Source of the DNA: a virus
IMG/VR virus record: IMGVR_UViG_3300027659_000011
Location: 62,001 to 126,000 of that record
DNA length: 64,000 nt
Strand: one strand, 5' to 3'
The position numbers and the translations under genes were made by a program. Below the pieces are notes generated by a model. That model was not told the DNA's origin. It ran no database searches and saw nothing but the letters and a program-made list of their open reading frames with translations. Positions 20,974-62,510 of the stretch are shown here, in pieces. Each line of letters begins with the position of its first letter. The first letter of the stretch is position 1.

Positions 20974-22014
20974 ATGAAAAAAGCATTTGTAATAAATGGG
21001 GGAGCAGGCAGAGTGTTATGCGCACTGCCTGCTTTAGAATACTATAAAAATAATATCGACAAAGATGTAGTTATTATTGCTGAAGCATGGCCTGAGTTAT
21101 TTTTACTCAGTCCAACTTTAAGAAATAATGTATATCATGTTGCCCATAAAAATCTTTTTGAACAAAAACTAAAAGATAGAGAAATTGAATGTCCTGAACC
21201 TTACAGATTAAATGCTTATTTTAATCAAAAAGCTAATCTTATTCAGGCTTTTGATAAAATTATAAACAACTTAGAAAGCGTACCAAGCTCTAAACCGATC
21301 AATTTAGAGCTTGGTAAAGCCGAACAAGTATATGGATATAATTTAGTAAATCAAGTAAAAGCACAACTTGGAAAAGAAAAGTGTGTAGTATTTCAGCCCT
21401 TTGGTAGTGGAGTACGACTAGAAGGTAATTTTGTATTTGATACTAGTGGTAGAAGTTTTGAACTAAATGACGTTATTAAAATAGTAACAGATCTTAATAA
21501 AAATTATGCTGTAATATTAATGCTTCCTTTTAAGATACCTACAGATAGGGAAATAAATGCAGCAGTTCCAGAAAATATAGATTTAGTTAAATGGGCAGGA
21601 GTTATCAAAGCTTGTGACTACTTTTTAGGATGTGATAGTGTTGGGCAACATTTAGCTCATGCTTTAAATAAACCTACTACAGTTGTAATAGGCTCAACAT
21701 TTCCTGAAAATATATCTTATCCCGATAACAAAAATTTCAATATTATTGATAATGGAAAAGCAACAAGAACATATACTCCAATTAGATTAACTCATGATAC
21801 AGATGCTGAAAGAAACAATGAAGATTCAATGATTCTTAGCACCGATACTTACACTAAAATTATTAAAAGTGTAGAAAATAAACTAGGTGTTAGTAAAGTC
21901 AAAAAAGATTTTACTACAAACGTTAAACCAATAAACACTCAAGCTCAAAGTATGCCAAATTTTGCAAAAAAGGCTACTAGTTTGATTGAAGATGTAATTG
22001 CTAAAGAGGCATAA
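20974..22014 (+). CDS. GT9-type glycosyltransferase (heptosyltransferase-like)
   Basis: 346 residues. N-terminal FVINGGAGRVLCALPALEYY is the start of a GT-B fold of the GT9 (WaaC/WaaF) kind, and the C-terminal VFQPFGSG...ACDYFLGCDSVGQHLAHALNKPTTVVIGST is the typical donor-binding half. GT9 enzymes use ADP-heptose, which fits the downstream heptose activation genes. It directly abuts the carbamoyltransferase gene. Acceptor and exact donor are unknown; the last 30 residues are low-complexity. Confidence 0.75.
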   Translation: MKKAFVINGGAGRVLCALPALEYYKNNIDKDVVIIAEAWPELFLLSPTLRNNVYHVAHKNLFEQKLKDREIECPEPYRLNAYFNQKANLIQAFDKIINNLESVPSSKPINLELGKAEQVYGYNLVNQVKAQLGKEKCVVFQPFGSGVRLEGNFVFDTSGRSFELNDVIKIVTDLNKNYAVILMLPFKIPTDREINAAVPENIDLVKWAGVIKACDYFLGCDSVGQHLAHALNKPTTVVIGSTFPENISYPDNKNFNIIDNGKATRTYTPIRLTHDTDAERNNEDSMILSTDTYTKIIKSVENKLGVSKVKKDFTTNVKPINTQAQSMPNFAKKATSLIEDVIAKEA

Positions 22015-23814
22015 ATGGAAAAAACAGGATATATACTTGGAATTAGTCGTGGACATAATGCAGGAGCATGTTTATTAAAAGATGGTAAAATTATTTTTGC
22101 TATTGAAGAAGAACGACTAAGTAGAGCTAAGTATGATGGTGGACCCTATGCCGCTATGATTAAAGTAAAAGAGTACACTGATAAAGTAGATTTTATTGTA
22201 GTTTCACATACTCAAAGCTTAAAAGAAACTTGCGGTAAAGTTGATTTTTATGGGGATAATATCTATGCAGGACTTGCACGAAAATTAGGTCTAATTGACG
22301 GCAGATTAGGAACTCCTGATGAACACCCTCAAGTAATTGATCTTAGTAGTCAACACCATAAAATTCATGCAGCAGCAGCATTTTATCGTAGTGGATTTGA
22401 AGAGGCAATAGCAGTTATTGTAGATGGAGCAGGTAGTGCACTGCCAGCTACCTATAAAAATGAACCTATTATTTTATGGGAAGTAGAATCTATTATTGAT
22501 TGCGAGTATACAAAACCTTTTAAAACACTATACAAACACTACGCTTCTAGAAGTGCTGTACCTGTATATCATAACTTAGAAGAGTCTAGCGATAAACTAG
22601 GTGAAGAAGGTACTCATGAAGTATTAATGAGTGGACATGCAGGAATTACTAAAGTTTATGAAGCTGTTACAGAATATTGTGGTTTTCAAGCTATTGAAGC
22701 CGGAAAAACTATGGGATTATTTCCATATGGTAAACCCAATGATAATATTCCAAAATTATTTAATTCTGATACTAGAATACCTCTTTCAAATGCTAATGTT
22801 GTTGTGCCACAAATGCCTAATGGGGCAGAAGTTAGTCATATGGCGTATGAAGAGTTACAGACACCTTTTAGTATTGATAATCCCACACTACTACAAAATC
22901 GTAGAGACCTTGCTTATGCTTGTCAAACGGAAACTCAAGAACAAGTTCTTAACCTTATCTTAAAAGGTGTAGAAACTAGCGGTAAAAATAAAGTAGTGTT
23001 AAGTGGTGGTTATGCTTTAAACTGTGTGGCAAACTACTATTACTTAACAGAATTACATAAACGTGGCATTGAATTATATGTTGAGCCTGTTTCTAATGAT
23101 GGTGGTACGGCTATTGGTGCCGCCTTGGTATTCTATCATATGACGGAACCTGATGCAGTTAATGTAAAACATCCACGAGAAATATACTTAGGACCTGAAT
23201 ACAACTATTCTGAACAAGATATTGCTAAACTTGCTCATAAATATGATGCAGAAATTAGCGATACTACTAAAGAAGATGTAGTCGACTTAATGACTACAAA
23301 AAACATAGTTGCAATGTTTCAAGGCAGATCTGAAAACGGTCCACGTGCCTTAGGCAATCGCAGTTTGATGTTTGACCCTACGTTCCCAGACGGCAAAGAT
23401 TTTGTAAATGAAATTAAGCATCGTGAGTACTTTAGACCTTTTGCAGGATCTATATTAGAAGAAGATGTTCATGAATGGTTTGATCTTCGCGGTATGCCAA
23501 ATAGCCCACACATGATGTATGCTGTTAACTGTCAACCAGGTGTCGAAGAAAAAATTCCTTCAATTATTCATGTTGATGGTACTTGCCGTATCCAAACAGT
23601 TACACGAGAAGAAAACCCACACTACTATGATGTAATTAAAGCTTTTAAAGATAAAACTGGTATTCCTATTATCTTTAACACAAGCTTTAACTTAGGTGGT
23701 GAACCTTTGGTAGAAACTCTTGATGATGCTCTGTGGACCTTAAGTAAATCTGGTATTGACTATTTGTACTTACCAGAGTATAATAAACTTTTAACAGTTA
23801 AAACTAAACAATGA
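22015..23814 (+). CDS. Carbamoyltransferase (NodU/CmcH family)
   Basis: 599 residues, full family length. The N-terminal ASKHA-like half begins GISRGHNAGACLLKDGKIIFAIEEERLSR, with HHKIHAAAAFYRSGF and VIVDGAGS; further on are KTMGLFPYG, KVVLSGGYALNCVAN and GGTAIGAAL. The C-terminal half has QGRSENGPRALGNRSLM, REYFRPFAGSI and NTSFNLGGEPLVET. All are hallmarks of carbamoyltransferases that move a carbamoyl group from carbamoyl phosphate through a carbamoyl-adenylate onto sugars or natural products. The stop overlaps the next start by four bases. The target is presumably a sugar made or transferred by the neighbours. Confidence 0.9.
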   Translation: MEKTGYILGISRGHNAGACLLKDGKIIFAIEEERLSRAKYDGGPYAAMIKVKEYTDKVDFIVVSHTQSLKETCGKVDFYGDNIYAGLARKLGLIDGRLGTPDEHPQVIDLSSQHHKIHAAAAFYRSGFEEAIAVIVDGAGSALPATYKNEPIILWEVESIIDCEYTKPFKTLYKHYASRSAVPVYHNLEESSDKLGEEGTHEVLMSGHAGITKVYEAVTEYCGFQAIEAGKTMGLFPYGKPNDNIPKLFNSDTRIPLSNANVVVPQMPNGAEVSHMAYEELQTPFSIDNPTLLQNRRDLAYACQTETQEQVLNLILKGVETSGKNKVVLSGGYALNCVANYYYLTELHKRGIELYVEPVSNDGGTAIGAALVFYHMTEPDAVNVKHPREIYLGPEYNYSEQDIAKLAHKYDAEISDTTKEDVVDLMTTKNIVAMFQGRSENGPRALGNRSLMFDPTFPDGKDFVNEIKHREYFRPFAGSILEEDVHEWFDLRGMPNSPHMMYAVNCQPGVEEKIPSIIHVDGTCRIQTVTREENPHYYDVIKAFKDKTGIPIIFNTSFNLGGEPLVETLDDALWTLSKSGIDYLYLPEYNKLLTVKTKQ

Positions 23815-24218
23815 AAATTTTTGTAAACGGCACTTTTGACGTTTTACATCCAGGACACCTAGACTTGCTGAACTACGCAAAAAGTCTAGGTGACTTTTTA
23901 CTGGTTGCAATTGATTCGGATAGTAGAGTCGCCAGCAAAAAGGGTTTGGATAGACCTGTCAACCCACAATATAATAGAGTTAAACTACTAGAAAATCTCA
24001 AGGCGGTTGATGAAGTAGTTGTGTTTGACAGCGACATAGAACTAGCACAAACAGTAAAAATACTTAGACCTGACATAATGATTGTTGGATCAGATTATAA
24101 AGATAAAACCGTAATTGGTTCGGAATATGCAAAGCAACTTAGATTCTATAATAGAACAACACCTTTCTCAAGTACCCAAATCTTGGAAGATTTTATTAAT
24201 AGGCGACACTTGTGTTGA
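23811..24218 (+). CDS. hldE-C: HldE C-terminal-type nucleotidyltransferase
   Basis: 135 residues. FVNGTFDVLHPGHLDLL contains the HxGH motif (His13-His16) of cytidylyltransferase-fold enzymes; SKKGLDRPVNPQYNRVKLLENLKAVDEV, IMIVGSDYKDKTVIGS and the closing FSSTQILEDF follow the HldE nucleotidyltransferase domain, which makes ADP-heptose from heptose-1-phosphate and ATP. Here it is a separate protein, upstream of and overlapping the kinase gene, the reverse of the order in fused HldE. Confidence 0.85.
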   Translation: MKIFVNGTFDVLHPGHLDLLNYAKSLGDFLLVAIDSDSRVASKKGLDRPVNPQYNRVKLLENLKAVDEVVVFDSDIELAQTVKILRPDIMIVGSDYKDKTVIGSEYAKQLRFYNRTTPFSSTQILEDFINRRHLC

Positions 24219-24912
24219 CCAATATGTATATGGTCATATTGATAGATTAAGCCCTGAAGCTCCAGTTCCTGTATTTGTACCTGCGCACGAAGAAACTCGC
24301 AGAGGTATGGCAGGAAATGTTGAAGAAAACTTAAAATCTCTGGGTTGTACAGTACAGTTACTGACTATAAAAGGCAGTGTGAAAACTAGATTTATAGATG
24401 CAAGGTCTAATCAACATATTATGCGCTTAGATCAAGACGCTACTGGTGGACCTTTTGAGATTGAGTACCCACTACCCCCTATATTTGACGCAGTAGTAGT
24501 CAGCGACTATAACAAAGGCTGTGTTAGCTACGAATTAGTTGAACAACTAATAAGGATGTTCCCTTGCCCTATATTTGTTGACACTAAGAAAACAGATTTA
24601 GCTAGATTTGAAGGCACCTTTGTAAAGATTAATAATTTAGAAAATTCACTAGCTAAAACGTTTCCAAGTCAATTAATTGTAACACTTGGTAAACACGGTA
24701 CACGTTATAACGATGTTGTCTATCCTGCACCCGTTGTAGAAGTAGCAGATGTTTGTGGGGCAGGAGATACCTTTTTAGCAGCATTAACTTATGAATACTT
24801 AAATACAAAAGATATGGTTAAAGCTATTGAGTTTGCTAATCGTGCAGCTGCAATAACAGTAAAACATATGGGTGTTTATGCACCCACATTGAAAGAAATA
24901 AATGAGGCTTAA
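24127..24912 (+). CDS. hldE-N: HldE N-terminal-type sugar kinase (PfkB family)
   Basis: 261 residues from the ATG at 24127; a TTG at 24115 is an alternative. ILLIGDTCVDQYVYGHIDRLSPEAPVPVF matches the opening of RfaE/HldE kinase, MAGNVEENLKSLG replaces the usual GGAANVA, and DVCGAGDTFLAAL is the PfkB signature with the catalytic Asp. In the pathway it phosphorylates heptose-7-phosphate at C1. It overlaps the nucleotidyltransferase gene by about 90 bases in another frame, so the two activities are encoded by overlapping genes. Confidence 0.85.
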   Translation: MQSNLDSIIEQHLSQVPKSWKILLIGDTCVDQYVYGHIDRLSPEAPVPVFVPAHEETRRGMAGNVEENLKSLGCTVQLLTIKGSVKTRFIDARSNQHIMRLDQDATGGPFEIEYPLPPIFDAVVVSDYNKGCVSYELVEQLIRMFPCPIFVDTKKTDLARFEGTFVKINNLENSLAKTFPSQLIVTLGKHGTRYNDVVYPAPVVEVADVCGAGDTFLAALTYEYLNTKDMVKAIEFANRAAAITVKHMGVYAPTLKEINEA

Positions 24913-25258
24913 TGGGTTTGTAGAAAAAGGTTGGGGCTCAGAGTTAATTTGGGCAACTAATGATAAATATTGTGGTAAGTTAATGAAATTTAACAAAGAC
25001 GCAAAATTTTCAATGCACTTTCACGCTGAAAAAGATGAAAGCTGGTATATCTTAGAAGGCAGATTTCTTATTAAGTTTATTGAGACCAATGACGCAAGCC
25101 TACACGAAGTAGTGTTAAAAGCTGGGGAAGTGTGGCGAAATAGACCCCTACAACCTCACCAAGTTGTTTGCATTGAAGCAGGTACAATTATTGAGGTTAG
25201 TACACCAGATTCAGTAGAAGATAATTATAGAATTATGCCAGGTGATAGTCAACAATGA
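24902..25258 (+). CDS. Cupin-fold sugar isomerase-like protein
   Basis: 118 residues. KFSMHFHAEKDESWYILEGRFLIKF is cupin motif 1 (His-x-His and Glu) and PHQVVCIEAGTIIEVSTP is motif 2, close to small mannose-6-phosphate isomerase-like and sugar isomerase cupins. It overlaps the kinase by 11 bases and the next gene by 4. A role in supplying a sugar phosphate to the heptose genes is inference; classical GmhA isomerase is not present in the window. Confidence 0.7.
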   Translation: MRLNGFVEKGWGSELIWATNDKYCGKLMKFNKDAKFSMHFHAEKDESWYILEGRFLIKFIETNDASLHEVVLKAGEVWRNRPLQPHQVVCIEAGTIIEVSTPDSVEDNYRIMPGDSQQ

Positions 25259-25563
25259 AATATATTATAGATATTGACGGAACAATTTGCTCAGTTGTTC
25301 TTAACGATGATGGCAGTGTAAACTATGATAAAACACAGCCGTACAAAGACAGAATTAAAAAAATCAATAAGTTAATAAGTGAAGGTCACGAAATAACTTA
25401 TTGGACAGCCAGAGGATCTGCATCTGGCGTTGATAGGTCAGAATTGACCAGAAAACAGCTCACAGAGTGGGGAGCAAGATATCACGAACTGTTATTTTAT
25501 AAACCTGTTTATGATATTTGGATTGATGACAAAGCCATTAACTCAGAACAATACTTTAAATGA
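25255..25563 (+). CDS. HAD-superfamily phosphatase (capsule/LPS-associated type)
   Basis: 102 residues. IDIDGTIC (DxDGT motif) at the start, TYWTARGS as motif II and DIWIDDKA as motif IV fit small HAD phosphatases common in polysaccharide clusters. Position suggests the GmhB step (removing the 7-phosphate of heptose bisphosphate), but GmhB is about twice as long and has a zinc loop that is missing here, so it would be an analogue. Four-base overlaps on both sides. Confidence 0.75.
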   Translation: MKYIIDIDGTICSVVLNDDGSVNYDKTQPYKDRIKKINKLISEGHEITYWTARGSASGVDRSELTRKQLTEWGARYHELLFYKPVYDIWIDDKAINSEQYFK

Positions 25564-26342
25564 AAATTTTATTAACAGGACACCGCGGTTTTATTGGCAA
25601 AAACTTATTAAAAGTCTTAGAAAACGCCGACCACGAGATTAGTACGTTTGAGTGGGATGATGGAAATATGCCCAGCGTTATGGAACAAGACTGGGTCATA
25701 CACATTGGTGGAATTAGCTCAACTACTGAGCGTGATGTTGACAAAATTATGCGACAAAATTATGATTTTAGTCGCCAACTATTTGCTGCTTGTAAAATTT
25801 ACGGAGTAAATTTACAGTATGCAAGCAGCGCTAGCATATACGGTTTAGGGTCAGATTTTAAAGAAACAGCACCTGTAGATCCAAGAAATGCCTATGCTTG
25901 GTCTAAATATATGTTTGAACGATACCATCAACAACATCAAGGTGGTAATATAGTACAAGGATTTCGTTACTTCAATGTATATGGATTAGGTGAAGACCAC
26001 AAAGGATCTCAGGCTAGTCCCTACCACCAATTTAAAAATCAAGCAGTTAAAGATGGTAAAATAAAAGTATTTGAAAATAGCCAAGATTATAGAAGAGATT
26101 TTGTACCAGTTGAGCAGATAGTTGCTACTCATCTGGCTTTTTTAAATAGTCAAGAATCAGGTATATTCAACATTGGCACAGGTACTACACAAAGCTTTTT
26201 AGAAGTAGCTGAGTATTTTAATGTTCCAATTGAAACAATACCAATGCCTGAACAACTAAAGGCAAGTTACCAAAAGTATACTTGTGCTGACATGACTAAA
26301 ACACGTAAGATTTATGACTACACTAAAAGAACTGACGCATGA
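25560..26342 (+). CDS. hldD: ADP-heptose 6-epimerase-like protein (HldD type)
   Basis: 260 residues, shorter than E. coli HldD (about 310) but colinear. TGHRGFIG (residues 6-13) is the NAD(P) Rossmann motif; ISSTTERD, YASSASIYG, YAWSK (Tyr112, Lys116), GFRYFNVYGLGEDHKGSQAS, RDFVPVEQI and LKASYQKYTCADM all match HldD positions. HldD turns ADP-D-glycero-D-manno-heptose into the L,D form used by heptosyltransferases. Other extended SDR epimerases are possible, but the HKGS and CSSTTE-like motifs favour HldD. Overlaps heme oxygenase by 29 bases. Confidence 0.8.
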   Translation: MKILLTGHRGFIGKNLLKVLENADHEISTFEWDDGNMPSVMEQDWVIHIGGISSTTERDVDKIMRQNYDFSRQLFAACKIYGVNLQYASSASIYGLGSDFKETAPVDPRNAYAWSKYMFERYHQQHQGGNIVQGFRYFNVYGLGEDHKGSQASPYHQFKNQAVKDGKIKVFENSQDYRRDFVPVEQIVATHLAFLNSQESGIFNIGTGTTQSFLEVAEYFNVPIETIPMPEQLKASYQKYTCADMTKTRKIYDYTKRTDA

Positions 26343-26853
26343 AAACCATGCAAAAGCAGAGGCTCATCCGTTCACAAAATTATTAATAACAGGTAATCTT
26401 CCTAGTCATGTATATGCCGACTACTTATATAATCAATTAGCTGCATATAATGCACTAGAAATATTATGTGAACAGCATGGTTTATTAGAAGGTATTGAAG
26501 ATATTAAAAGATCAGAAAAGATAATTAATGATTTAAATGAATTTATTGATGAATATCCTGAAGTACAGATTTACCCTTCTACATTAGACTATGTAGACTA
26601 TTTAGAAAAAGCATCGAGTAAACAGTTATTAGCTCATCTATATGTACGTCATATGGGCGATATGTATGGTGGACAGCTTATAAAAACAAAGATACCTGGT
26701 AATGGTACTATGTATGATTTTGAAAATCGTAAAGAGCTTATTCAAAAACTACGTGAAAGATTAACTGAAGATTTAGCAACAGAAGCAAATTATTGTTTTG
26801 AGCAAATTTTTTCAACATTCACGGAGTTAGCTAATGAGCACAATATTCTATAA
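26314..26853 (+). CDS. ho: Heme oxygenase
   Basis: 179 residues. LKELTHENHAKAEAHPF aligns with the proximal helix of heme oxygenases, with His12 in the place of the heme-ligating His. YVRHMGDMYGGQLIK is the distal helix signature (GDxxGGQ). Heme oxygenase opens heme to biliverdin, iron and CO using reduced ferredoxin. The ATG lies inside the end of hldD and the stop lies inside the next gene, so it is the middle of a translationally coupled trio. Phage heme oxygenases are known from cyanophages and marine phages; next to a bilin reductase this is a bilin-making pair. Confidence 0.9.
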   Translation: MTTLKELTHENHAKAEAHPFTKLLITGNLPSHVYADYLYNQLAAYNALEILCEQHGLLEGIEDIKRSEKIINDLNEFIDEYPEVQIYPSTLDYVDYLEKASSKQLLAHLYVRHMGDMYGGQLIKTKIPGNGTMYDFENRKELIQKLRERLTEDLATEANYCFEQIFSTFTELANEHNIL

Positions 26854-27526
26854 ATTAAAAGCTCATGCACTAGAATTAGAATCAATTCTTAGTGCTAGAG
26901 CTTTTTCTTCGCCTTCAGAAATCACCTCAGAATGGTACACTAAGAATTTTTCTAGTGCTTGGGTTCGTAGAGCTAACCTAGATGTTATTGACGTATCAGA
27001 TTCTAAAAAACTGTATATGATGCATCTATGTATATTTCCCCATACATATGACGCTGCTCCTATATATGGATTCGATATCATAGCTGGTACAAATAAAATT
27101 ACAGGTGCCTTTTTAGATTTTTCACCTACAGGAGATCCTGAACATCCACTATGTAAGTGGTTTCAAGAGTTTGTAGAGCCAACATCATGGGCAAAACCCA
27201 GAGAATTACCTGAATGGGCACGAAACATATTTTCAAATCGTATGGTTGCTGCAGGTAATATTAATACTGATTTTGAATTAGCCGTATTACTAGAAATAAG
27301 TAAAAAGTCATTGGTTCACTATTTAGACAATATATCAAAACATCGCCCAATGTTAAAGTATGAAGATATGATATCACAGAATAATTTTACTGAAAAGCAA
27401 AATTATTACTGTCAGCAACAAAAATGCAATCCACATACTCCAAGAGTATTAAAAACATTAGGGTTTAATGATGAACAAGTACATGAGTACATACATAAAG
27501 AGCTATTTCCTGAAATCCCCGTTTAG
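26834..27526 (+). CDS. pcyX: Ferredoxin-dependent bilin reductase (PcyX/PebS-like)
   Basis: 230 residues, typical for the HY2/FDBR family. APIYGFDIIAGTNKITGAFLDFSP (residues about 75-98) is the central sheet with the conserved Asp (Asp95), and YYCQQQKCNPHTPRVLKTLGFNDE...YIHKELFPEI is the C-terminal FDBR signature. These enzymes reduce biliverdin to phycobilins using ferredoxin. Overlap with the heme oxygenase gene by 20 bases gives a heme-to-bilin route. Of the family, phage PcyX in proteobacterial phages is the best fit by context; which bilin is made cannot be read from sequence. A terminator follows. Confidence 0.85.
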   Translation: MSTIFYKLKAHALELESILSARAFSSPSEITSEWYTKNFSSAWVRRANLDVIDVSDSKKLYMMHLCIFPHTYDAAPIYGFDIIAGTNKITGAFLDFSPTGDPEHPLCKWFQEFVEPTSWAKPRELPEWARNIFSNRMVAAGNINTDFELAVLLEISKKSLVHYLDNISKHRPMLKYEDMISQNNFTEKQNYYCQQQKCNPHTPRVLKTLGFNDEQVHEYIHKELFPEIPV

Positions 27527-33737: not shown

Positions 33738-35702
33738 TTATTTTATAGGGCAAGCGCCAGTTGAGCAGTCATCAGATACAATTTCGTCAAAACTATTTGT
33801 ATCGTCTAAACTAACGGGTTGAAGAAACTTAATGTATTCGTTATAATCTTGTTCACTTACTACTTCTTGTGGAAGATATAAATATCCAAGATCTTTAGCT
33901 GTCATACTTGGATCAGTACGATAGATAAAGCTAACACCTACATAGCAATCCCAGTTATTTAGCAGCCACTGAATAATATCTTCTACTTCGTCTAAGGAGT
34001 AAGAGATCGTTACTGAAGTGTTCTGCTGAGTCCAGCTGGTCTGGATTAATTTGTATTTCTCTAGCTGTTCTACTGCGGAGTCTAAGTTTACTTCCTTACC
34101 ATTAACTTTATGGAAAGGAACATCATCCCACTTTACTGGGAAAGTAATTAAAACACCTGAATCATCAGTTGGATGATTGATAACAGTATATCCAGCAGCT
34201 TTTAATTTTTCAACTACTGGATCGTATTTAGAGAACTGAACATTGTTAAAAATATATTTACCCAAAGGCTTATGAATACCTTCAGTAGTGTCCATAATTT
34301 TACTTAATGTACCTGAAGGTTTAACACAAGTAATATTTTTAGGGCTAGGTAAATCTAATTCATCTGACATACCAATAGCAGCAGCAGTTGCTGTGCGTTT
34401 TAGATATTCGTAATCATATCCACCCATATCAGGGCGTTTGGCAATACCAGTAAGGCCGACACCGCACAGACGAAGAAAATAGTTATTAAGATGCCAAGAT
34501 TCTTGAAGGATACCATCATTTAAGTTTACGCAAGTTTGGCGATAGTTTGCTCGTGCAGCAAGTCTGATCGCTTCATGTAAGCCTGCAGTATCTCCTTTGA
34601 ATTTACCAATATCTGTTTCGGTAAGATTACAGAACGATTTATTTCCCAAAAGGATTTCAACGCACGGGTTGCATCCTGAGAACCAAGGGGCTCTACGGGT
34701 AGCTTCCACTGCATTAATAAATCCAGGTTCACTACCGCCTGCATCTTCCATGAGATCAAATATTTTTCGTAGATCTTCATAAAGGGGTTTTTCTTTAAAT
34801 ACTAGGGAGTTATTAGACTGTTGGCGGTGTGAATTATTATGCAACCACCAATCTTTTTTAGCTACTGCAAATTCTTCCCACTCTGGTTGTCCGTATTCAA
34901 ATAGAGCGATCTCAGCACTTCTACGACTACTAAGAATGGTACCAAGATGATTGATAATATCAAGAATATCCATGCGAGTGAGCAGACTATCAGCCCTGCC
35001 GTTAAGTATATTAGCAATTGCCACATAAGCTGTGCTGATTGCCGAATCGCCTGAGCTAATCCATCCATATCCTTTTAACCTTTCACCTGCTGGTCGTAAC
35101 TGCGAGAAATCTAGTACTAACTCTTTAGCAGGATATTTACCTGCCATTAGTTTACCTACTGATTTAGCCCAAGCTTCTGCGGAATCACCGACCTGAATAG
35201 TCCATGTTTTATTTTCTGAGTCCCAGGTTTCTGTATTGTGCTCGTTACCACCTTTAGCAGTACGAGTTGATCGCACTACTCTGATATTTTTAATTGGCTT
35301 TGAGAAACCATTTAGTGTTCCAACTACTGGTTTAAACCCAACTCCGCATCCTTGTAGTAATAGCCATAGGCAGTCTACTACGTCATAAATTGTTTCTACT
35401 TGTGTAAATGAACAATTAAATTGTGATGCTTCTCTTTTTTGGGCGACTGTTGTACCGCCTAACCAAAGAGAACGACCGCTCATAGAGACTTTACGATCTA
35501 ACATTAGCTGCTCTAAATCATATAGTTCAGCAAATTCAAGATCTGTTAACTCTCTATTAGCGGCTCGTTCCCATAACCATTGTTGATGGTCTATTACTCT
35601 GGAAACTGTTTGTTCCCAGCTTTCAAATTGTTTTCCGTCGTCTGTAAGTGGTCTGTTGTATGTTCTTCGTGTTATTACTTGTGCTCTTGTGGATACATTC
35701 AT
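33738..35702 (-). CDS. nrdJ: Class II (B12-dependent) ribonucleoside-triphosphate reductase
   Basis: 654 residues. QFNCSFT carries the first redox Cys (Cys97), GCNPCVEI holds the catalytic Asn345-Cys347-Glu349 triad, and the C-terminal DDCSTGACPIK gives the shuttle pair Cys646/Cys651. Length and motifs fit the monomeric adenosylcobalamin-dependent type (Lactobacillus leichmannii RTPR-like). It makes dNTPs for phage replication and would use host cobalamin. ATG overlaps the upstream stop (ATGA). Confidence 0.9.
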   Translation of the reverse strand: MNVSTRAQVITRRTYNRPLTDDGKQFESWEQTVSRVIDHQQWLWERAANRELTDLEFAELYDLEQLMLDRKVSMSGRSLWLGGTTVAQKREASQFNCSFTQVETIYDVVDCLWLLLQGCGVGFKPVVGTLNGFSKPIKNIRVVRSTRTAKGGNEHNTETWDSENKTWTIQVGDSAEAWAKSVGKLMAGKYPAKELVLDFSQLRPAGERLKGYGWISSGDSAISTAYVAIANILNGRADSLLTRMDILDIINHLGTILSSRRSAEIALFEYGQPEWEEFAVAKKDWWLHNNSHRQQSNNSLVFKEKPLYEDLRKIFDLMEDAGGSEPGFINAVEATRRAPWFSGCNPCVEILLGNKSFCNLTETDIGKFKGDTAGLHEAIRLAARANYRQTCVNLNDGILQESWHLNNYFLRLCGVGLTGIAKRPDMGGYDYEYLKRTATAAAIGMSDELDLPSPKNITCVKPSGTLSKIMDTTEGIHKPLGKYIFNNVQFSKYDPVVEKLKAAGYTVINHPTDDSGVLITFPVKWDDVPFHKVNGKEVNLDSAVEQLEKYKLIQTSWTQQNTSVTISYSLDEVEDIIQWLLNNWDCYVGVSFIYRTDPSMTAKDLGYLYLPQEVVSEQDYNEYIKFLQPVSLDDTNSFDEIVSDDCSTGACPIK

Positions 35703-57439: not shown

Positions 57440-57510
57440 TGGTTGCGGCGGAAGGACTCGAACCTTCTAGGCGGAGCTTATGAGACTTGCCTTTACCCTG
57501 ACTCACCGCG
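57440..57510 (-). tRNA. Initiator-like tRNA-fMet (CAT), degenerate
   Basis: Starts CGCGGTG and ends CGCCGCA-A-CCA, giving the C1-A72 mismatch that marks bacterial initiator tRNAs; T-arm GAAGG-TTCGAGT-CCTTC is clear. Anticodon loop CTCATAA is present, but its stem pairs poorly and the gene is only 71 bases, so function is uncertain. Confidence 0.6.
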
Positions 57511-57514
57511 ATAT

Positions 57515-57863
57515 TTGGTGCCAGTATTCTGTTACGAGGAACTGGCGGAACCCTAAGCAGAGTTTAGGCTGCTAATGCGAACTGTGAGTCGTTTGCGTTT
57601 ACTTTTGTTTAGTGTTAACGACAACTCTGTCGGACCGTCCATCTTTGTACTTATTGCCCTGTCGATTCTAAAACAGGCCCACCATAATACGTCTAGCATG
57701 TCTTCTGGAATAATTGTTAATACAAATGTAGTTGACACAATCTACATTAACAAACTTCCAAAGTGAATATGTTTCATCCATGTTAAATCCTATTATGGTG
57801 GACCTGGGGGGATTCGCACCCCCGTCCAGAACTACTTTCGATTAACTTCATACGATCATACTT
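57515..57863 (-). ncRNA. ssrA: Circularly permuted tmRNA (two-piece)
   Basis: Transcribed on the minus strand. The acceptor piece (about 57796-57863) comes first: T-arm ACGGGGGTGCGAATCCCCC, acceptor strand CAGGTCC, then A-CCA (CCA at 57796-57798). An intervening segment of about 115 bases follows. The coding piece begins GGGCCTG at 57680, which pairs with CAGGTCC including a G3-U70 wobble, the alanine identity element. The tag frame (57596 down to 57564) reads ANDSQFALAA and a TAA stop, after CGCAAACGAC identical to E. coli. The outer boundaries (57515, 57863) are approximate. Confidence 0.9.
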
Positions 57864-57938
57864 TGGCACACCCCCAGGGATTTGAACCCTGACTAACGGT
57901 TTTGGAGACCGACGTGCTGCCAATTACACTAGAGGCAT
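57864..57938 (-). tRNA. tRNA-Trp (CCA)
   Basis: Anticodon stem CGGT/ACCG around CTCCAAA (CCA anticodon), T-arm CAGGG-TTCAAAT-CCCTG, discriminator G, encoded CCA. The acceptor ATGCCTC/GGGGTGT uses three G-T pairs. Confidence 0.88.
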
Positions 57939-61506: not shown

Positions 61507-62510
61507 ACATGACCTATTTCTTCTGCAAACTGTCTACTGGCTGTATTCTTTTGTTTAGACTCACACATAATGTCTGCTGACTCTAAGAAAGTTCCAGCCC
61601 ACTGATTAACTTCTTTGTTCCAGTAAAATTCTGAATGTGCACGAAGTTTAGCTGAGGTAAAACCCTGTGATTTGAGTTCACGAAAGTCTGGGCGAGTTTG
61701 TCCACAATGATCAATGAGTATGTCTTCTCTGCTAATAGAGTAGTGAATAACTGGTCTGACACCACGCCATGAATCTTGAATTCGCTTAACCTTAGGGTCA
61801 TTTGGCTGAATATACTCACCACTAGCAATCCAGTGATGATGAATGTCAAGAACTAAGGCACAGTGGTCTACTAATTCTAGTGAGGCATCAATACCCCATG
61901 AGAACTCTGCGTTCTCGATGGTAAGTGTATTACGTGCTTCGGGTGTTAGTCGCTTTAGAGCTGAGATAATCCCTTTGGGACCTTGTTTGCCACCTACGTG
62001 TACATTGCATTTAAAGTCTTGAAACTTACGACCGTAACCCATGTAACGAATAATATCTGCATGATACTCAAACTCAGTAATTGACTTTTCAACTGTGCCT
62101 TCATTATCTGAGGCAAGCACACAAAACTGACCTGGATGAAAGCTAACGCGTACATCTGCTGCACGGAACTTATCACCGATACGGGAAAGATTCTTTTCTA
62201 GAAAGTCTACTACATCTGCTTGGAAGTAGAACCACATCCAGTCATCGTGTGAATATCCAGTAAGTAGATCACTACTTAATCTAAACATACGTAGACCTGC
62301 GGGTTGTTGTGCCATCCAGTCAGCTTGATTTTCAAGAGCTTGAATATTAGTACGCATCAAAGCCCATAGTCTTTCAGCAGCTATGTCTTTAGATTGCTTA
62401 TTAAGCCATGTGATGGTAGTGCCTTTAGTTTGGCAATTCACTACATCTGTAGATTCTGAACTTTGAATTTTACACGCAAAGCCAACGCGTTTTTGATTTT
62501 GATTAAACAT
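61503..62510 (-). CDS. uvsE: UV damage endonuclease, UvdE/UvsE-like
   Basis: 335 residues. RVSFHPGQFCVLAS, TLTIENAEFSWG, LVLDIHHHW and RPVIHYSIS are the metal-binding and barrel motifs of UvdE, a TIM-barrel nuclease that cuts 5' to UV photoproducts. Length matches the family core. It has its own strong promoter. Sensible for a phage in sunlit water. Confidence 0.9.
   Translation of the reverse strand: MFNQNQKRVGFACKIQSSESTDVVNCQTKGTTITWLNKQSKDIAAERLWALMRTNIQALENQADWMAQQPAGLRMFRLSSDLLTGYSHDDWMWFYFQADVVDFLEKNLSRIGDKFRAADVRVSFHPGQFCVLASDNEGTVEKSITEFEYHADIIRYMGYGRKFQDFKCNVHVGGKQGPKGIISALKRLTPEARNTLTIENAEFSWGIDASLELVDHCALVLDIHHHWIASGEYIQPNDPKVKRIQDSWRGVRPVIHYSISREDILIDHCGQTRPDFRELKSQGFTSAKLRAHSEFYWNKEVNQWAGTFLESADIMCESKQKNTASRQFAEEIGHV

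Follow-up and report, generated by a model that had tools for sequence, protein, structure and literature searches.

Cassettes that join a heme oxygenase gene (hemO) to a gene for a ferredoxin-dependent bilin reductase (FDBR) have been described in phages of several kinds. Published work already describes the hemO-pcyX cassette in phages from marine and fresh water, the cultured SAR11 phage Mosig among them, and calls it enigmatic why phages whose hosts are not cyanobacteria carry hemO and bilin reductase genes (PMC11480375). PcyX is published as a phycoerythrobilin (PEB) synthase (PMC11480375, PMC6755814), with Asp55 named as its specific catalytic residue, and the published cassette contigs cluster with two isolated pelagiphages of myovirus morphology (PMC11480375). 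A second type, the hemO-pcyA/X-valaS cassette of marine and freshwater phages with non-cyanobacterial hosts, includes that of CB_2, whose FDBR lacks Asp55 and makes phycocyanobilin (PCB; PMC11480375); CB_2 has a 527-kb genome and Methylocystis as its predicted host (PMC7674155). Cyanophages also carry FDBRs of the HY2 family, namely PcyA (P-SSM4 and P-SSM7) and PebS (P-SSM2), the latter likewise making PEB. The earlier note on the DNA examined here had itself named the pair as known from cyanophages and marine phage contigs, and the published cassettes, with Mosig as a case from a host that is not a cyanobacterium, lend no support to calling the pair a striking novelty (PMC11480375).

Heme oxygenase and bilin reductase of the window

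The window is a 64,000-nucleotide stretch (positions 62,001 to 126,000) of a 128,412-bp virus record, IMGVR_UViG_3300027659_000011. Its hemO and FDBR genes, announced in the earlier note as two overlapping genes, were both confirmed as open reading frames that share 20 nt (Table 1). The adjacency, overlap and order of hemO and pcyX are the same as in Mosig (EXVC030M, MT647606) and EBK42635. Among 147 loci with both genes, a count in which some contigs were entered twice, the overlap measured 20 nt at 73 loci and 17 nt at 31; it is likely to couple translation of the two genes. The frequency of promoter-like sites around the pair was not above chance.

Table 1. Features of the window (strand and coordinates in window numbering)
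Feature	Position	Strand	Size or state	Basis or equivalence
hemO (heme oxygenase, HO)	26314..26853	+	179 aa, intact	PF01126, fold, dN/dS
PcyX-type FDBR (predicted)	26834..27526	+	230 aa, intact	PF05996, 5owg, tree, fold, dN/dS
hemO 3' end/pcyX start overlap	26834..26853	+	20 nt	
HO His12 codon	26347..26349	+		proximal heme ligand by homology; aligned to HO family His
HO distal-helix motif GDMYGGQ (115-121)	26656..26676	+		conserved in relatives
FDBR Asp50 codon	26981..26983	+		PcyX Asp55/PcyA Glu76
FDBR His64 codon	27023..27025	+	invariant	PcyA His88
FDBR Asp81 codon	27074..27076	+	invariant	PcyA Asp105, central catalytic Asp
FDBR N199-P200-H201	27428..27436	+		PcyX signature; PcyA has N-D-K or N-K-K
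Seven-gene sugar block (context, outside the pair)	20974..26342	+		Pfam and PHROG matches
Class II (B12-dependent) ribonucleotide reductase	33738-35702	-		
Permuted (two-piece) tmRNA, betaproteobacterial type	57499..57904, within 57473-57938	-		RF01850

The HO matched the Pfam family Heme_oxygenase (PF01126) at 62.8 bits (cut-off 23), and the FDBR matched Fe_bilin_red (PF05996) at 71 bits (cut-off 31). AlphaFold2 models of both proteins, built from alignments of relatives with Mosig left out, had mean pLDDT values of 96.4 and 90.8, respectively; when compared with the PDB, the best fold by E-value was the heme oxygenase HmuO for the HO and PcyX (5owg) for the FDBR. These Pfam and fold identifications are far above chance. 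The His12 and GDxxGGQ residues that the earlier note had picked out in the HO were correctly identified and are conserved in the aligned rows: His12 was present in 144 of the 144 rows having a letter at that column, and D116, G119 and G120 in 145 of 145. With the HO domain, the fold, the proximal His and the GDxxGG motif all present, the protein has the features of the HO-1/HmuO type and is predicted from this family membership to cleave heme at the alpha position.

Several lines of comparison place the FDBR with PcyX. Its nearest solved structure by sequence was PcyX_EBK42635 (PDB 5owg, E = 4.3e-52), with PcyA a distant second, and a profile made from 54 of its relatives scored PcyX at 294.6 bits compared with 85 for PcyA, 28 for PEBB and 16 for PebA. 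A maximum-likelihood tree built from 65 rows put the FDBR in one clade with the Mosig and EBK42635 sequences, separated from five PcyA sequences with support of 100/94 and from three Peb enzymes with 100/95, although the deep joins are less sure than these supports suggest because several branches are long and alphaproteobacterial PcyA is absent from the rows. Two FDBR-like sequences from a sampled alphaproteobacterial genome (L168 and L170) were not PcyX-like in appearance and were kept out of the tree.

Residue conservation was read across the window and 135 loci, using rows with a letter at the column concerned, and 5owg numbering was matched on the assumption of an 8-residue tag, which also places PcyX Asp86 on D81. 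D50 was invariant among the relatives and is Glu in the five PcyA sequences; N199-P200-H201 was likewise invariant, and Mosig and EBK42635 share both D50/H64/D81 and N-P-H with the window. The Asp95 highlighted in the earlier note is indeed invariant (within FLDFSP), but the catalytic Asp lies elsewhere: by alignment, D50, H64 and D81 are the counterparts of PcyA Glu76, His88 and Asp105. As for the identification of an FDBR as such, it held on both points that the earlier note had made it depend on: the protein falls within the FDBR family and retains its conserved residues. An assignment to PcyA was rejected on the Asp at the Glu76 position and the placement outside PcyA in the tree, and the match to the NCBIfam PcyA equivalog (89.4 bits) lies under its cut-off of 206. 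PebS was rejected on His64 and Pro200, which are Asn and Asp in PebS, and on its separate branch. Taken together, the domain and fold, the grouping with known PcyX enzymes and the Asp55 equivalent identify the FDBR, at the level of sequence, as a PcyX-type synthase, for which family membership predicts PEB as the product, a point on which the earlier note had not committed itself. One pocket position varies: at the site of PcyA His74 the window and 46 relatives have Asn (Asn48) and 85 relatives have His, as does Mosig, and this substitution could change the activity or the product of the enzyme.

Relatives, phage background and host

Scanning IMG/VR with the FDBR as query retrieved 76 contigs, and an HO was adjacent to the FDBR in all 75 that had upstream sequence; the other contig (L032) begins inside the FDBR. 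When the HO was used for the scan, an FDBR was found nearby in 79 of the best 80 of about 600 matches, so that the two genes are nearly inseparable among the best HO matches. The only HO without an FDBR among these 80 (L227:4998-5543) has unrelated genes on the downstream strand. Both scans together amount to about 110 distinct contigs, some loci being one contig retrieved twice. Among T5-like relatives the median dN/dS was 0.08 for the FDBR and 0.13 for the HO; both genes are under purifying selection, with the tighter constraint on the FDBR. When GTDB was scanned for bacterial PcyX, the only hits were two contigs from marine MAGs, whose HO and FDBR genes resemble those of Mosig; these are probably phage sequence in bins, which agrees with pcyX being confined to phages.

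Relative to Mosig, the window FDBR is about 44% identical and the HO 36%. Closer to hand, at loci where the FDBR matches that of the window with 85-92% identity, the HO reaches only about 52%, and at the DNA level the comparison with L019 and L021 gave 81-83% identity at the end of the epimerase gene upstream, about 50-75% in the HO and about 85% in the FDBR. This dip between conserved flanks points to an HO that was exchanged as an allele or is evolving faster.

The terminase (49.7%) and DNA polymerase (48.7%) of the contig were nearest to those of Vibrio phages, which we take to be T5-like, and by these two proteins the contig is classed as T5-like, unlike the T4-like Mosig. The pair follows the tail-fibre region in both phages. 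The window belongs to a set of about 30 contigs (L008-L041) with FDBRs 69-100% identical to that of the window and, where the contigs extend, a downstream module of lysis, PhoH and ribonucleotide-reductase genes. In a T4-like set the pair adjoins neck gene 13, as in Mosig (e.g., L042-L046, L049-L051, L068, and L070-L075), and several other loci (such as L059-L064) had neither the T4-like nor the window-set marker; additional phage lineages may carry the pair. A search mostly outside the subscription literature found no earlier description of a T5-like phage with the pair. The T5-like setting of hemO-pcyX thus appears to be a new, apparently unreported lineage, the published marine contigs being T4-like pelagimyophages.

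The pair is optional in the T5-like group. Among PhoH-anchored records, 22 of 23 had no FDBR, most of these being fragments, and the one with an FDBR was already known. The closest relatives of the PhoH-to-replication module of the contig (L247 and L248, PhoH 96% identical) have no pair at the site, and the pair-bearing relatives have PhoH proteins mostly near 75%, which suggests acquisition by recombination. Absence was judged on whole records, since 9-kb flanks can mislead: L315 shares its contig with L021, where the pair lies farther off.

The earlier note had also described a nine-gene sugar cassette ending in the pair. The count comes to seven sugar genes plus the pair, and a tie between them is not supported, as L009-L018 carry the pair and have no sugar genes beside it. 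The seven genes (GT9-like, carbamoyltransferase, HldE-like adenylyltransferase, PfkB kinase, cupin, phosphatase-like, and epimerase) resemble an ADP-heptose pathway and may serve LPS remodelling; among the relatives they are a separate, dispensable and swappable insert. A role of the pair in the sugar pathway was rejected on its occurrence without these genes.

A betaproteobacterial host is inferred from the tmRNA, which matched the Rfam family beta_tmRNA (RF01850) at 107.8 bits (gathering threshold 84); the cut-off was also passed in seven T5-like relatives. The tmRNA encodes the tag ANDSQFALAA and adjoins a tRNA-Trp. The host is probably a non-photosynthetic betaproteobacterium, in further distinction from Mosig; one phage has been described with a tmRNA type that does not match its host (PMC9004378). 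No phycobilisome, PHY or photosystem genes (including PF00124 and PF00502) were detected above cut-off on the contig, a possibly incomplete record, and PHY and phycobilisome domains were likewise absent from 11 other pair-bearing records. The claim of an HO and an HY2-family FDBR in a phage without photosynthesis genes is therefore upheld as far as photosystem, phycobiliprotein and phytochrome genes were detected, and it sets the window phage apart from cyanophages, with their photosynthesis-type gene set, their cyanobacterial hosts, their separate FDBR branches, and a Glu at position 50 (PcyA) or an Asn at 64 and an Asp at 200 (PebS). Ferredoxin genes above cut-off were also absent from the contig, so the electrons would come from a host ferredoxin.

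The neighbourhoods of the known cassettes differ in content. In Mosig, a putative ferrochelatase gene and several genes for 2OG-Fe(II) oxygenases lie beside hemO-pcyX (L002 8243-9013), bringing genes for heme synthesis and heme breakdown together; no ferrochelatase was seen beside the window pair. Nor was an alaS noted there, by a reading of the neighbours that used no model, in contrast to the valaS cassettes. Upstream of the window, IscU and two A-type Fe-S carriers (IscA/ErpA-like) are encoded consecutively, directly before the terminase (contig positions 21725-22729; L004:2725-3729), with IscU scoring 187.9 bits. Genes for IscU and A-type carriers are known from other phages (PMC5332604). 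IscU/ErpA also occur in phages whose examined stretch has no pair, so the link to iron is not specific, and records around the pair seldom extend to this region; the genes suggest compatibility with a role in iron.

Proposed reaction, benefit and alternatives

We propose that the HO would cleave heme of the host, yielding biliverdin IX-alpha, iron and CO, and that the PcyX-type FDBR, translated from the overlapping start codon, would carry out a four-electron reduction of biliverdin to PEB with host ferredoxin as the source of reducing power. This reaction, with its substrates and product read from family membership, we hold to be probable. The benefit is the weakest step. The favoured reading is that host heme would be turned over steadily while infection proceeds, so that iron is recovered and heme and biliverdin are removed; the FDBR would be required to clear biliverdin and so keep the HO turning. 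That an FDBR may speed an HO by removing biliverdin rests on what is generally known of HO product release. The importance of the FDBR step is indicated by the rarity of an HO without an FDBR among close relatives and by the stronger constraint on the FDBR. When reaction and heme-turnover benefit are taken jointly as one auxiliary metabolic cassette, our confidence is evenly balanced.

The same constraint and near-constant presence of the FDBR may also mean that its product matters, and the most credible of the alternatives, though an unlikely one, keeps both enzymes and makes PEB itself the point: it might act as an antioxidant, or bind as chromophore or ligand to a host protein such as a phytochrome-like receptor or a bilin-binding globin. 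Bilin-binding globins do occur in non-photosynthetic bacteria (PMC10151467), but the contig and the 11 other pair-bearing records are without PHY or phycobilisome domains. With no phycobilisomes, light harvesting is unlikely. Since PEB has no C15=C16 double bond, a phytochrome that bound it would at best be locked and would not photoconvert. A little less likely still is the broader proposition that a T5-like clade of phages of non-photosynthetic betaproteobacteria kept a full heme-to-PEB pathway and that the reduced bilin is useful in a host without a phycobilisome, for example by occupying and locking a host photoreceptor or bilin-binding globin, or as a redox product.

We regard it as improbable that the release of iron by the HO alone matters and that the FDBR is a passenger. 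The Fe-S genes of the contig, the single HO without an FDBR and the iron supply already proposed for such cassettes (PMC11480375) would fit such a role, but the retention of the FDBR in nearly all of the best HO loci and its low dN/dS do not. Equally improbable is an enzyme that functions as a PcyA and yields PCB, as for CB_2: PcyX and PcyA are sister groups, the FDBR of the CB_2 cassette is a real PcyA (PMC11480375), and the His74 pocket position differs in the window; against this, CB_2 has no equivalent of the D50 found here, and the tree, the profile scores and the N-P-H signature all put the window FDBR in PcyX. A recent acquisition without function, which the optional nature of the pair and the many, mostly fragmentary, PhoH-anchored records without it might suggest, is highly improbable: the reading frames are full-length, the catalytic residues do not vary, both genes are under purifying selection and the folds are predicted with confidence.

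Overall, the two genes were found almost always together, on about 110 contigs that represent at least two phage lineages; this near-constant pairing, together with the greater constraint on the FDBR, makes iron release alone a strained explanation. Furthermore, with a betaproteobacterium as its probable host, a T5-like phage might allow the pair to be studied in cells that grow more readily in culture than SAR11.
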